Positions 7,746-13,650 of a stretch of 62,259 nt of DNA are shown here, piece after piece. The first letter of the stretch is position 1; each line of letters starts with the position of its first letter. The position numbers and the translations under genes were made by a program. The notes under the pieces were generated by a model. That model worked only from the letters and a program-made list of their open reading frames with translations. It was not told where the DNA came from and ran no database searches. This stretch comes from Acidimicrobiales bacterium (lineage in GTDB: Bacteria; Actinomycetota; Acidimicrobiia; Acidimicrobiales; SZUA-35), in the NCBI GenBank assembly GCA_020629695.1, contig JAHDCV010000008.1, positions 10,653 through 72,911 of the forward strand, given 5' to 3'.

Positions 7746-10022
7746 TCAGCCGCCGAGCCCGGCCAGCACCTCGTCGAGTGACCGCAGCCCCTCCTGCAGA
7801 GAGGTCGCGAGCAGTTCGAGTTCGGTGCCCTCGATCGCGACCTCGATCGGCACGTTCAGCTGCACCGGGATGTCGACCTCGACCGGGACGGTCTCGTCGA
7901 TCGGTACCTCCACGTCGAGCTGGATCGGCACGTCCACGTCGACCGGAACCGAGACGTCGACGGGCACCTCGAAGCCGAGGCCCGTGTCGATCTCGATCGT
8001 GGTGTCGATCGTCTCGGAGATGTTGATCGTCTCGTCGACCGGAAAGCTGATCGTGCGCTCGAGCCGGACGTCGGTGCGGATCGGGATGGTCTCGTCGATC
8101 GGCACCTCGAAGCTGATCGTCGAGGTCTTGAACTCCTCGAGTTCGGCGATGGCGGTCTCGACACCGTCGCTCACGAGCGGTTCGAGATCGACGAGTTGCT
8201 GCTGGAACCCGGTCACCTGGGCTGCGAACAACGCCGATCCGGCCTCGACGCGGGCGAGATCCTCCTCGGTCTGCTGGAGCCGCTGCCAGAGCACGCCGAC
8301 CAGCAGGAGCGTCGCGACCAGTCCGATCCCGAGCGCGCCCAGCGCGACGAGCGCCCAGAACGGCAGCCGACGACGGTGTGCTGGTGCGGGCAGCGGGTCA
8401 TCGATCGGTGCGGTCCCATCGTGTCCGTGGTCGTCGGCGAAGTGCTGCATGGTGGCTCCGGTCGGGGTGGGATCGGTGGGCTCGTCGTCGAGCAGGACGG
8501 CGGCGACGAGGCCGAGCGCGGTGAGCGCAGCGGCCGCGAGGAAGGTCTGGGCGATGGCCTCGGCGGTGAGCCGAGCCGACGCCTCGGCAGCGGCGGCGGC
8601 GAAGCCGGGATCGGTGATCGGAGGCAGTTCGATGGTCGAACGCAGCGCGTTGAAGCGTCGGAGCCCCCAGGCGGTGAGGGCCGCGAGTCCCAGACTCAGA
8701 CCGAGCAGTCGCACCACCATGACCAGGCTGGCGGCGACGCCACGCCGGTCGACTCGTGCCCGATCGACCACGGCGGCGGTGGTCGGGGCGGTGATCAGTC
8801 CGAAGCCGGCGCCGAGCACGGCCAGTCCGGCCGCGAGGGTCGTGGTGGAGGTGCCGGGGGCCCACGTGCGACCCATGACGACGAAGGTGATCGCGGCGAT
8901 CGCGAGCCCGAGCAGGGTGGGTCGACGTGGACCGACCCGCTCGGTCCAGCGCCCACCCAGATAGCTCGTCACGGCCATGGCGCCGGTCATGGCCGCGAGC
9001 GCCGCACCGGCCGCGACCGCGGCACGTTCGACGTCGGGCTCGACCGCGTTGACGAACAGCGGCACGTCCACCATCGCGATCACGAGCCCCGCGCCCAACG
9101 CCAGGTTGGCGCCGAGCGCCGCCCGGCTCGATCGGTTCGCGATCAGGGCCGGGTCGACGAGCGGATCGGGTCGGCCTCGTTGCTGGAGCACGAGTGCGAC
9201 GGCGGCCATCGTTGCGGGGATCAGGGCCCAGCGCATGTCGGGGCCCGAACCTCCCGTCAGCTCGTCGAGGCCCGACACACTCTGGATCTCCGCGTTGCCG
9301 AGCAGCGCCAGACTGAAGCCGACGAGTGCCACGGTGAGCAGCGTGGTGCCGACCAGATCGATCCGTTCGGGCGGCGCGGGTCGGCGGTCGTCCGATCGAT
9401 CGTCGCTGCCGAGCGCCCACCAGAGCCAGACCAGCCCGATGGCGACCAGCGGCAGGTTGAGCCAGAACTGCCAGCGCCAGGACGCGAAACGGACGAGCGC
9501 CGCGCCGTACAGCGGACCCCACACCCAGCCGAGCGTCTCGATGGCGGCGAGGACGCCGAGGGCCCGCACCCGACGGGCGACGGGGTAGGCGTCGGCGACG
9601 ACGGCGAGGGCGACCGGGACCATCGCACCACCGCCCAGGGCGGTGAGCACACGACCGACCAGCAGTACGGGGTAGGAGGACGTCGCCGCGATCACGACCG
9701 ACCCGACGGCGAACGCGAGATAGGCCACGGTCAGGACCCGGCGGCGTCCGACCAGGTCGGACACCCGGCCGGCGATCGGCATCACCGCGATGAACGCGAG
9801 GAGGTAGACGTTGACGATCCAGGAGGCGTCGTCGATGCCGTCGGGGAGCACGAGGCCGACGTCGTTGATCATCGGGCGCAACATGGTCGACACGACCGTC
9901 AGGTCGTCGGCCGCGATGAACATCGCGAATCCGACGGCCGCGAGGATCGCACCGGGGGAGCGGAGCCGTTCGTCCCGGGCGGGCGAGGGCAGGCGCTCGG
10001 CCGGCGAGGTGGCGTCAGCCAT
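7746..10022 (-). CDS. MFS exporter (P55/Rv1410c-like context) with extra TM, coiled coil and beta-repeat tail
   Basis: Residues 1 to about 515 form a 14-helix DHA2-type major facilitator (GRVSDLVGRRRVL motif A region near residue 85). The gene overlaps the stop of the LprG-like lipoprotein gene by 8 bp, the arrangement of mycobacterial lprG-Rv1410c, whose products export triacylglycerides. Beyond the MFS core, residues 555-578 form another membrane helix preceded by Arg-rich HRRRLP. Residues 579-632 are probably coiled coil, and about 634-735 alternate Val/Ile/Pro with Asp/Glu/Thr (VPIDETIPI, FPVDETINI, VPVDVSVPV). A short helix closes the 758-residue protein. By the positive-inside rule the tail is extracytoplasmic (inference). 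The family is normally about 500-520 residues. Transport substrate unknown; lipid is inferred from context. Confidence 0.82.
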   Translation of the reverse strand: MADATSPAERLPSPARDERLRSPGAILAAVGFAMFIAADDLTVVSTMLRPMINDVGLVLPDGIDDASWIVNVYLLAFIAVMPIAGRVSDLVGRRRVLTVAYLAFAVGSVVIAATSSYPVLLVGRVLTALGGGAMVPVALAVVADAYPVARRVRALGVLAAIETLGWVWGPLYGAALVRFASWRWQFWLNLPLVAIGLVWLWWALGSDDRSDDRRPAPPERIDLVGTTLLTVALVGFSLALLGNAEIQSVSGLDELTGGSGPDMRWALIPATMAAVALVLQQRGRPDPLVDPALIANRSSRAALGANLALGAGLVIAMVDVPLFVNAVEPDVERAAVAAGAALAAMTGAMAVTSYLGGRWTERVGPRRPTLLGLAIAAITFVVMGRTWAPGTSTTTLAAGLAVLGAGFGLITAPTTAAVVDRARVDRRGVAASLVMVVRLLGLSLGLAALTAWGLRRFNALRSTIELPPITDPGFAAAAAEASARLTAEAIAQTFLAAAALTALGLVAAVLLDDEPTDPTPTGATMQHFADDHGHDGTAPIDDPLPAPAHRRRLPFWALVALGALGIGLVATLLLVGVLWQRLQQTEEDLARVEAGSALFAAQVTGFQQQLVDLEPLVSDGVETAIAELEEFKTSTISFEVPIDETIPIRTDVRLERTISFPVDETINISETIDTTIEIDTGLGFEVPVDVSVPVDVDVPIQLDVEVPIDETVPVEVDIPVQLNVPIEVAIEGTELELLATSLQEGLRSLDEVLAGLGG

Positions 10023-10788
10023 CGAGGTCGGGCGGCTCGATGGTCACCTCGGTCCCGTAGTCCTCGAGCTCGAGGATCCAGGCGGTCGTGGCGCCGTCGA
10101 TCGAGGTCTCGAACTCGGCCCGCACGACGGCGGCGGTGCGGACGTCGAGCCACAGCTCCACCGGCGTGTCCTGGCGAGCGGCGAGGCCGGCGGTCACCCG
10201 TCGGATGTCATCGCCCGTGGCGACGGCTCGGAGATGGTGCCCGAGATCGTCGGTCCCGATCGTCTCGACCTCGGTCAGGTTCTCGATGAGCGGGCGCCAA
10301 CCCTGTTCGGGATCGAAGAACCGGCTCGGATCGAGCCCGTAGCTCTCGGGCAGTGGTTCGAACACGCCGGTGATCGGATTCGAGAGCCAGGCCTCGGCGT
10401 CGATGGCGATGGCGCCGAGCTGGGTCCGGAGCGACTCGTTGACCTCGACGGTGAGCAGGGCGTCGGCCTTGGCCGGCACGACGAAGCGGCCCTCGACGTC
10501 GACGAGTGCCAGCGTCCGGAGCGGGTCGATGAACACCGGGTCGCCGTTCGCTTCCAGCCGGAAGCGCACACTCTCGACCGCGGCCATGGTCTCGGCCGAC
10601 GTGGCGGTGAGTTGCTCGGCGTCGAGCGGAAGCACCGGGCCGGAGGCTTCGGGGAGACTGCAGCCGGCGAGTGCGATCGCCGCGATGGCCAGGACGGCCG
10701 TCGCGGACCGGATCATTCGATGCGCGGAGTTCCGGCGCGCCCGGACGGGGTCGTGGAGGGAGCGCGGGGTGTGGGTCTGGTGCGGCAT
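10015..10788 (-). CDS. LprG/LppX-like lipoprotein (LppX_LprAFG family)
   Basis: Has a lipoprotein signal peptide with lipobox LAGC, so it should be exported and acylated. The mature part (about 215 aa) follows the LppX_LprAFG pattern: an N-terminal strand segment VRFRLEANGDPVF, an acidic middle, the hallmark FFDPEQGWRPLIENL, and a C-terminal half of beta strands. Family members form a half-barrel that carries a lipid between the membrane and outer layers. ATG 10788 is chosen because GAGGA lies just upstream; ATG 10716 would give a more usual 19-residue signal peptide. It overlaps the MFS gene, so the two are co-translated. It is divergent from the RND-like gene at 10963. Confidence 0.85.
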   Translation of the reverse strand: MPHQTHTPRSLHDPVRARRNSAHRMIRSATAVLAIAAIALAGCSLPEASGPVLPLDAEQLTATSAETMAAVESVRFRLEANGDPVFIDPLRTLALVDVEGRFVVPAKADALLTVEVNESLRTQLGAIAIDAEAWLSNPITGVFEPLPESYGLDPSRFFDPEQGWRPLIENLTEVETIGTDDLGHHLRAVATGDDIRRVTAGLAARQDTPVELWLDVRTAAVVRAEFETSIDGATTAWILELEDYGTEVTIEPPDLDG

Positions 10789-10804
10789 CGGGTCCTCGTC
10801 GTCG

Positions 10805-10810
10805 AGCGTA
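10805..10810 (-). promoter_or_regulatory. Candidate -10 (TACGCT) of the lipoprotein-MFS operon
   Basis: Minus-strand TACGCT would place the transcript start about 10 nt before the ATG at 10788, leaving a very short leader that contains GAGGA. No convincing -35 is seen. Confidence 0.35.
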
Positions 10811-10844
10811 TCGCCCAGGGTGGTCGAGATCCGGGCAACGGCGA

Positions 10845-10872
10845 CGTTGGGTGGTCGCGGCACCACCCAACG
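10845..10872. promoter_or_regulatory. Operator-like inverted repeat in divergent promoter region
   Basis: Perfect 11-bp inverted repeat CGTTGGGTGGT/ACCACCCAACG separated by 6 nt, between the divergent lipoprotein-MFS operon and RND-like gene. Symmetry and position fit a dimeric repressor site. A hairpin in one of the two leaders is less likely because it lies upstream of both predicted transcript starts. Confidence 0.5.
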
Positions 10873-10879
10873 GAGGGAC

Positions 10880-10910
10880 CCCACGAAGAACGGTCCACCA
10901 CCCACGAAGA
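10880..10910. repeat. Direct repeat CCCACGAAGA, 21-bp period
   Basis: Identical 10-bp copies at 10880-10889 and 10901-10910. Their spacing of two helical turns puts both on the same DNA face. They lie just upstream of a TACAGT -10 candidate (10919-10924) for the plus-strand gene, as activator or repressor half-sites would. Confidence 0.45.
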
Positions 10911-10962
10911 GTGGCGACTACAGTGCTCGGTGGGCGGAGTTGGTGTCCAGGGATCGGTTTCC

Positions 10963-13650
10963 ATGGCTCCAACTCATGAACGACTGCTGAAGCGTCTCGC
11001 GACGACATTCGGTATCGCGATCGCGCTCCTCCTCGCCCTCGGCGGTGTGGTGTCCGCGCTCGACGAGAGTCGGCCGAACCTCGCGACCCAGGTCGCGATG
11101 GAGCAGGGCCCCAACGGCGACCTGCCGGATCTCGTGGTGCTGGTGCGCGACCTGCCGGCCGGCGCCGACTTCGCCGCGGTCGATCGATCGGTCACCGCGC
11201 TCGACGAGGTCGAGTCCGTCGTCGTCGAGGCCAACGGGGCCGACCAGGCGGTCGTGCACGTGTCGCTCCACGCCCGGGCCGGTGCCGCCACGCCCGATCT
11301 CGTGCTCGACACCGTCGCCGCGGAGGTGCCCGATGCCGAACTGATCCTCGGCGGACGGGTCGCGGTCGATCGGACGTTGGTCGACCGGGTGAACCGGGCC
11401 CTCGTCGTCGCAGTCGTGCCCGTGCTGGTGCTGATCGCCGCATTCGCCGCCGCCACGATCGGCACCGCTCGAGCCCTCGTCGCCGCCGGGTCGATCGCGC
11501 TGGCGACACTGCTGTCCGGTCTGGTGGCCGCACAGCTCGTCGGATCGTTCGACGGCTCGCTCGGCTCGACCGCCATGCCGTCGGTGCTGTGTGCGGTGTT
11601 GATCTCGTCGGTGCTCACGTTCCGATTGCTCGACTGGTTCACCCAGCCGATCGGTTCGGACCCCTCGGCCTGGGTCCGTCTCTCCGTTCGGTCGCTGATC
11701 CCCGAGGTCGTCCTGCTCCACGTCGGTCTCGTCGGCGCGGCCCTCGTCGTGGAGCTGATCGTCGGTCCGGCCCCGATCTCGGCGGTGGCGTTCTCCTCGA
11801 TGGTCGCCACGGTCGTCACCCTGGCCACCGTCGCTCCGGGTCTGGCCACCTTCGGTCCCCTGGTCGACGACACGATCTTCCGGCCCTTCAACGTCCGGAT
11901 CCCCGACGGGCGGGACTTCCCCCTGGCCGTCCTCGGCGGCTTCGCCTGCTTCCTGCTGGCGCTCGGACTCTTCGCGACCCGCGCGCCGAGTCGTGAGCTG
12001 CTCGACGAGTCGGCCCTCGCCCCGGGCGTCGCGGCCGATCGAGTGGCTCGTGAGCTCGCCGCACTCGGCGGCGATCCGACCTCTGCCATCCTGGTCGAGT
12101 TCGATCCGGGCGCCGACGCGGCGGCCATGTCGACCTGGGCGGCGGCTGCGTCGCAGATCGGTGCGGTGGCCTGGGTCGAGACCTCTGCCGGTCGGTTCAC
12201 CGACGGTGTGTTGGCCGAGGGCGCCGCCGCATTCGTCGACGAGACGACACCTCGCGCCGTGGTCACTCCCGTGGGAACCGCTCGGGCCGTGGCCACCCAG
12301 CGCCTCGTCGACGCCCTGCCCGCCGTCGGTGGGTACGACGGACAGATCACGCTGCGCGGTACCCCGATCGCCGCGGGCTCGGCGGTCGAGGGAGGCACGC
12401 TCCAGCTCTGGCTCCTGATCGGTGCCCTGTCGCTCGCCGGTGCCGCCGCCGTCATGTTGCTCATGGGCGATCTCATGGTGGCCGCCTCCTCGGCGGCGCT
12501 CCGGCTCCTCGGCCTCGCCGCCCTGGTCGGGGTCTACCGGTTGGTCGCCGGTGAGACCTCGTCGATCGAGGCCCAGATCCTCGTCCTGGTGGTCGGTGTC
12601 GGTGTCGGGCTGTTCGAGTTGGGCTTCGTCCGTCGGCTGTCCCTCGGTCGGGACGGCCTCGCCGGGAACGGTCTCGTGACCTCGGCGCTGTCGCGCGACG
12701 GTCGGGCCGGCATGGTCGGCCTCGTGATCGTCGCCCTCACCTCGCTCGGTCTGGTGGCCAGCGACCTCGCGATGCTGCGGCGTCTCGCGGTCGGCCTCGT
12801 GGCCGGCATCCTCATCGAGCTGGTCGTGGGGATCTGGTTGTTGCGGCCGGCCCTGCTCGCCGACCTCGCCGGCGTCAGCAACACCGCCGCCGCGGCCCGC
12901 CGCCGCGGCGACCTCGTCGCCGCCGCCGCCGAACAGGCGACGCTGCCGGCGCCGAGTTTCGCCGCCGCGACGACGCTCGTACCCGACACCAGCGCCGGTC
13001 TCCCGTCACCGGCGATGGCGGGTGCGGTGCCGTCCGCCGGAGCGGCCTCGATGGGAGCCGGTGGGCTCGCCGCCTCGTCGGGACCCACGTCGGCGACGAA
13101 TGCCGTGGCCTCGGCTGCGATGTCGCCGGGCTCGGCCGCGGAGGCGCCTCCGGCTGCTGGCGGAACGGCCGCCCCGGGCACCGGCGGTCGGGTCGCCCCG
13201 AGCGCTCCGGAGTGGCGTCGCATCATCGGTGGCCTCCTCCGTGCCGAGTTCGACTTCCAGGCGGATCCCGGATCGGCCGAGCTGGAGACGGTCTTCGTGG
13301 AGAAGACCCCGCTCTGGGACGAACTGGTCGACCATCACGCCAAGCTCCGCGCCGCCGGCGTGCGGGTCACGGGTCGTGGCCCGATGGTCCGGGTCGCCCG
13401 GGTCATCAACGACAGCTCGCCCGTGACACTCGAGATCACCGTCGACCATCCCGTGCGTCACCTGATCGACGGTCAGGGCCGTGTCGTCGGCCGTCGCGCC
13501 GCCGAGCGGCGCAACGGCATGTTGTGGCTCGTGCAGGATCCGTCGGGTCGATACCGGATCGCCGAGGCGGTCGACCTCGGCACGGCCGCGGCGACCGAGG
13601 ACGAGGCGGCCATCTCCGTCGTCGAGCAGCCGTCGATCGCCATGGCCTGA
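10963..13650 (+). CDS. RND/MMPL-like membrane protein with C-terminal folded domain
   Basis: An 895-residue protein with RND topology: TM1 near residues 12-30, an extracytoplasmic domain (about 31-140), a block of six helices to about residue 345, a second extracytoplasmic domain (about 346-480), then five more helices to about 640. After an Ala/Pro/Ser-rich cytoplasmic linker (about 650-750) comes a folded domain (about 755-890) with alternating strands that looks NTF2-like. Sequence similarity to MmpL/RND exporters is weak, and the proton-relay Asp-Tyr pairs of MmpL3 are not obvious, so active transport is not certain. Being divergent from an LprG-like lipoprotein and MFS pair suggests a shared envelope-lipid task (inference). 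Confidence 0.7.
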   Translation: MAPTHERLLKRLATTFGIAIALLLALGGVVSALDESRPNLATQVAMEQGPNGDLPDLVVLVRDLPAGADFAAVDRSVTALDEVESVVVEANGADQAVVHVSLHARAGAATPDLVLDTVAAEVPDAELILGGRVAVDRTLVDRVNRALVVAVVPVLVLIAAFAAATIGTARALVAAGSIALATLLSGLVAAQLVGSFDGSLGSTAMPSVLCAVLISSVLTFRLLDWFTQPIGSDPSAWVRLSVRSLIPEVVLLHVGLVGAALVVELIVGPAPISAVAFSSMVATVVTLATVAPGLATFGPLVDDTIFRPFNVRIPDGRDFPLAVLGGFACFLLALGLFATRAPSRELLDESALAPGVAADRVARELAALGGDPTSAILVEFDPGADAAAMSTWAAAASQIGAVAWVETSAGRFTDGVLAEGAAAFVDETTPRAVVTPVGTARAVATQRLVDALPAVGGYDGQITLRGTPIAAGSAVEGGTLQLWLLIGALSLAGAAAVMLLMGDLMVAASSAALRLLGLAALVGVYRLVAGETSSIEAQILVLVVGVGVGLFELGFVRRLSLGRDGLAGNGLVTSALSRDGRAGMVGLVIVALTSLGLVASDLAMLRRLAVGLVAGILIELVVGIWLLRPALLADLAGVSNTAAAARRRGDLVAAAAEQATLPAPSFAAATTLVPDTSAGLPSPAMAGAVPSAGAASMGAGGLAASSGPTSATNAVASAAMSPGSAAEAPPAAGGTAAPGTGGRVAPSAPEWRRIIGGLLRAEFDFQADPGSAELETVFVEKTPLWDELVDHHAKLRAAGVRVTGRGPMVRVARVINDSSPVTLEITVDHPVRHLIDGQGRVVGRRAAERRNGMLWLVQDPSGRYRIAEAVDLGTAAATEDEAAISVVEQPSIAMA

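Follow-up and report, generated by a model that had tools for sequence, protein, structure and literature searches.

The exporter gene pair

The window analysed here, 62,259 nucleotides of a 4.17-Mb draft genome from an Acidimicrobiales bacterium, carries between positions 7746 and 13650 the three genes that had been described there, and relatives with these genes are Acidimicrobiia. On the minus strand lie genes for an LprG-like lipoprotein (P0002, 257 residues, 10015-10788) and a major facilitator superfamily (MFS) transporter (P0001, 758 residues, 7746-10022), coupled in that the end of the first overlaps the beginning of the second by 8 bp (10015-10022, minus strand). Divergent from them, across a 174 bp spacer that separates it from the lipoprotein ORF, is the gene of an RND/MmpL-like protein (P0003, 895 residues, 10963-13650, plus strand).

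P0002 is the only protein found in its genome to match the Pfam family LppX_LprAFG (PF07161), which it does along the entire profile (positions 1-192 of 192) with a score of 42.6 bits against a cut-off of 24 bits. A lipobox, LAGC, with its Cys43 encoded at 10660-10662, and the hydrophobic stretch of a signal peptide can be read directly from the sequence. When a family profile made from 19 homologues was compared with the PDB, LprG ranked first (1.4e-9; entries 3mh9, 3mh8 and 4zra), followed by LprF and LppX. Family membership and homology to these three LprG structures make it likely that P0002 contains a hydrophobic acyl-binding cavity. In the literature library searched there was no paper on Ilumatobacter envelope lipoproteins.

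The first 510 residues of P0001 (8493-10022, minus strand) form a 14-TM core of the DHA2 family and of Rv1410/MHAS2168 type, matching MFS_1 in Pfam with 195 bits. MHAS2168, a homologue of Rv1410 with a solved structure (8PNL), extracts triacylglyceride. It is the closest solved MFS protein by sequence, at 185 bits against 79 bits for EfpA, the next, and also the top Foldseek match (8pnl, TMt 0.84-0.85), with EfpA and EmrB as the next structural neighbours. The AlphaFold2 model has long TM11 and TM12 helices (residues 424-461 and 474-509) and linker helices TMA and TMB (223-242 and 263-282). In Rv1410, the linker helices, the periplasmic extensions of TM11 and TM12 and the charged pairs D22-R108 and E147-R417 are all functionally important (Remm et al. 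2023, PMC10576003). D22, R108 and R417 align with D40, R124 and R438 of P0001, where the aspartate is present in 46 of 47 homologue rows (the other being gapped), the first arginine in all 47, and R438 is invariant. The counterpart of E147 is an acid in 47 of 47 homologues, but in 44 of them it sits at the preceding residue. At residues 162-163 (9534-9539, minus strand), [ED]T replaces the xE of Rv1410 across the whole Acidimicrobiia exporter clade, the ion-lock acid being apparently shifted by one position.

Might the MFS instead export drugs or small molecules, as EfpA and EmrB do, with the lipoprotein serving something else? Its DHA2 membership, the structural proximity of EfpA and EmrB and a match to TIGR00711, albeit one that falls under that model's cut-off, would fit. 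However, MHAS2168 stands far above EfpA both in bit score and in fold E-value, the ion-lock charges appear to be kept, if with the shift just described, and an LprG-family gene is constantly adjacent, so that we consider a drug exporter quite improbable. An LprG-type gene adjoins the P0001-type MFS gene in 13 loci across the class and in further relatives, and the pair is conserved across orders. The gene pair and its order are those of LprG-Rv1410c (P55) and MHAS2167/MHAS2168, and shared features extend to an LprG-family lipoprotein, a 14-TM MFS, the linker helices, long TM11 and TM12 and, at aligned positions, three of the four charged residues tested in Rv1410. The original prediction of an LprG-P55/Rv1410-type pair is borne out by the PF07161 match and by the rank of MHAS2168 in sequence and fold, and a two-gene lipid exporter of this type is thus supported. 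Four loci in other Acidimicrobiia families contain a second, diverged type of PF07161-linked MFS, 31-34% identical.

A predicted hairpin on the transporter

Beyond its core, P0001 continues with a tail (residues ~511-758) in which the AlphaFold2 model places a TM helix, a further helix, two long strands and a final helix, all encoded on the minus strand. The extra TM helix (residues 555-589, 8256-8360), with which a separate small protein begins in other genomes, is followed by a juxtamembrane helix (596-632, 8127-8237). Then come a first β arm (635-679, 7986-8120), a conserved turn reading TGLG, GPFG or TPLG (7971-7985) and a second β arm with a VP[VI]x hexad repeat (685-729, 7836-7970), before a C-terminal helix closes the protein (734-757, 7752-7823). 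The arms, delineated from the model and a homologue alignment, are 46 residues each and strictly amphipathic. Over all homologues, the hydrophobic fraction is 0.73 on one face of arm 1 and 0.07 on the other, against 0.92 and 0.02 for arm 2, an alternation matched by none of 20,000 shuffles. The extra TM helix and repeat arm thus prove real and conserved, as predicted; mycobacterial Rv1410 has neither.

Confidence of the AlphaFold2 model is low to moderate over the arms (pLDDT mostly 53-65), but their pairing can be argued independently of the structure model. Arm lengths are nearly constant among homologues, at 46 and 52-53 residues, and where they change they change together. In five homologues, six additional residues in arm 1 are accompanied by six in arm 2, while Ilumatobacter nonamiensis has lost 20 from each. 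Odd lengths in two further proteins, affecting arm 1 in one and arm 2 in the other, were judged from their sequences to be artefacts of pattern matching. Insertions and deletions of equal length in both arms (+6/+6 and −20/−20) support an antiparallel hairpin held in fixed register. With 3.3 Å allowed for each residue, a length of ~150 Å (about 15 nm) is predicted for the arm. Long extracytoplasmic parts also accompany inner membrane transporters in the EmrAB-type tripartite MFS pumps and, as a coiled-coil arm, in MmpL4 and MmpL5. In contrast to the α-helical hairpins or coiled coils of those systems, however, the arm of P0001 is predicted to be a two-stranded amphipathic β-ribbon.

The tail has no credible sequence match in Pfam, NCBIfam or the PDB, and constitutes an independent, previously unnamed protein family seen only in Acidimicrobiia, the new element of this locus. 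Scanning 84,980 genomes revealed 37 loci, the majority with a fused tail, some with an adjacent separate gene and a few with a free-standing one, all under organism names of Acidimicrobiia, Acidimicrobiales, Ilumatobacter or its kin, unclassified Actinomycetes and bacterial MAGs. One apparent match beyond the class was rejected as false, since it lay on the strand opposite to a gene for an aspartate-rich repeat protein. Among 50 proteins compared, the tail is fused to the MFS in 28 and encoded just downstream in six; in one genome, the separate tail gene overlaps the MFS stop by 4 bp. On an MFS tree, five changes are required to account for the fused, the separate and the absent state. The tail is therefore a partner that keeps its linkage to the P0001-type exporter through both fusion and fission. 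In a few lineages it is free-standing, with no P0001-type MFS or LprG gene nearby, and it is absent from one clade of eight exporters in the same family as the source genome, so it is not essential for LprG-MFS transport. At four loci, all from one genus and without LprG-MFS nearby, the free-standing hairpin gene lies by a type IV ABC exporter gene; at two of these a small gene on the opposite strand comes between them.

One face of the arm is too greasy to be left exposed, so that another copy of the arm, LprG or lipid must cover it, which suggests either a lipid guide or a self-assembling scaffold. The arm could be a structural anchor or oligomerization device. In that case, the hairpins of several MFS molecules would zip together by their faces and build a stalk within the cell wall, by which the exporter is held or further envelope proteins are recruited. 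We regard this as a genuine possibility, though short of probable. A ribbon of two strands with one wholly aliphatic face is indeed expected to be unstable alone, the turn and C-terminal helix are conserved, and the tail also occurs away from LprG-MFS, all of which would suit an anchor. Against it, the lasting linkage to one type of exporter, whether fused or separate, suggests a role in transport. Our best guess for the arm is a scaffold or track through the cell wall. The more specific idea that several hairpins build a hydrophobic β-track or tube, along which neutral lipid would be carried from MFS and LprG across the wall, we consider rather unlikely as it stands.

The divergent RND-fold gene

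P0003 comprises a 12-TM core (10963-12882, plus strand), a disordered linker and a C-terminal α/β domain (13207-13590, plus strand). A Pfam search assigned it to no family, and only one of 23 homologues matched MMPL (4.8e-5), but a profile of its homologues found MmpL3 in the PDB at 7.7e-6. The predicted 12-helix RND topology is upheld by a confident AlphaFold2 model of the core, in which a small porter domain follows each of TM1 and TM7, as in the MmpL proteins, and by Foldseek, which placed MmpL3, MmpL4 and MmpL5 on top; comparison with MmpL5 8zkp (VIA) gave Z 32.0 and rmsd 5.4 over 599 aligned residues. In a profile alignment, however, the Asp-Tyr relay pairs that MmpL3 has in TM4 and TM10 are missing from the family, which has instead an invariant R221 in TM4 and a near-invariant E552 in TM10. 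If P0003 transports at all, it would thus be energized differently, and it may serve as a sensor or regulator and not as a pump.

Conservation is higher in the C-terminal domain (~60%) than in the RND core (~43%). Assignment of this domain to a known family was rejected, there being no Pfam match above cut-off, and it occurred in none of 245 other genomes in a sample of the phylum. Orthologues of P0003, sought with its first 470 residues, were present in 33 of 99 relatives, all from one Acidimicrobiia family, and the family-restricted domain is a further difference from the MmpL proteins. MmpL3 itself carries a long C-terminal cytosolic extension. Of two features originally held to be absent from mycobacteria, the MFS arm therefore stands and a cytosolic extension as such does not.

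A single envelope lipid pathway had also been proposed for the lipoprotein, the MFS and the RND-like protein, and the spacer had been described as structured; in this reading the three would be co-regulated from it. The MmpL-like fold of P0003 would suit such a pathway, and the divergent adjacency does persist in a second genome of the genus. Yet the spacer has no unusual structure compared with its shuffled versions (z -0.3 and -0.8), and a structured regulatory element can be discounted. Seventeen genomes of the same family hold both the exporter pair and the RND gene, but the two are adjacent only in the source genome and in that second member of its genus; in another of the 17 they share a contig but are separated by about 110 kb. 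Families elsewhere in the order have the pair but not the RND gene, and much of the source family has the RND gene but not the pair.

The RND gene has in fact a neighbourhood of its own. In genomes with orthologues the order is fixed as aroA, ADH, OtsA, thiolase, CopD-like, sometimes an α/β hydrolase, RND, cystathionine β-synthase (CBS), CGL and 2-hydroxyacid dehydrogenase; single genes are absent in some, and the RND gene regularly precedes that for CBS. Two genomes in which the hydrolase gene immediately precedes the RND gene display the site without the exporter pair. A promoter-like −10 element (TACAGT) and the leader GGGCGGAGTTGGTG (10919-10945, plus strand) are kept upstream of orthologues with no LprG-MFS nearby. 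A promoter-like TACRCT box with the leader GGGCGGAGTTGG likewise lies 5′ of the P0003 gene and of many orthologues that lack the pair. Judged from these sequences, the RND promoter block predates the juxtaposition with the exporter pair. Since synteny and promoter are both retained in orthologues without the pair, the meeting of pair and RND gene represents one recent event.

By a test set beforehand, the three-protein pathway is thus refuted as a conserved system, ruled out by synteny and by adjacency in two of 17 genomes, both of the same genus. The RND gene is an accidental neighbour of the exporter pair and not a part of the system; the trio could remain only as a coupling specific to the genus, and we hold a single co-regulated pathway to be very improbable indeed. 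Probably, then, two unrelated modules have met at this locus: an LprG-Rv1410-type exporter with a hairpin arm and an RND protein of an older block (thiolase, CopD-like, RND, CBS and CGL) with its own promoter, the former presumably inserted beside the latter in an ancestor of the source genus.

A possible route for neutral lipid

In the mechanism that we envisage, the proton-driven MFS would pull a very hydrophobic lipid from the cytoplasmic membrane and hand it over to the lipoprotein of LprG type. The genome has four WS/DGAT genes, of which two lie near each other on one contig and the others on two further contigs, making triacylglyceride or wax esters plausible substrates, and we infer that one of these is most likely the exported lipid. 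In Acidimicrobiia the exporter would have a third part, the membrane-anchored amphipathic antiparallel β-hairpin, fused to the MFS in P0001 but in other genomes the product of its own gene further downstream. It probably projects into the cell wall beside the MFS exit, where its aliphatic face may either pair with those of other hairpins, giving a scaffold or hydrophobic track, or shield the lipid-laden LprG or guide it outward.

Research on LprG-Rv1410 has treated it as a component of the mycomembrane machinery; the hosts here belong to a class that is not known to have a mycomembrane. A pair of this type is now shown in Acidimicrobiia together with a dedicated extra part, the TM-anchored β-hairpin arm, fused or co-encoded, which sets it apart from LprG-Rv1410c. 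Some carriers of the tail are cultured, among them I. nonamiensis YM16-303, so that deletion combined with lipidomics is feasible. The geometry of the arm, about 15 nm long with one greasy face, points at the step by which neutral lipid is released from LprG and passes through the wall. If true, a hairpin track would be a bridge-like lipid conduit in bacteria with no known outer membrane.
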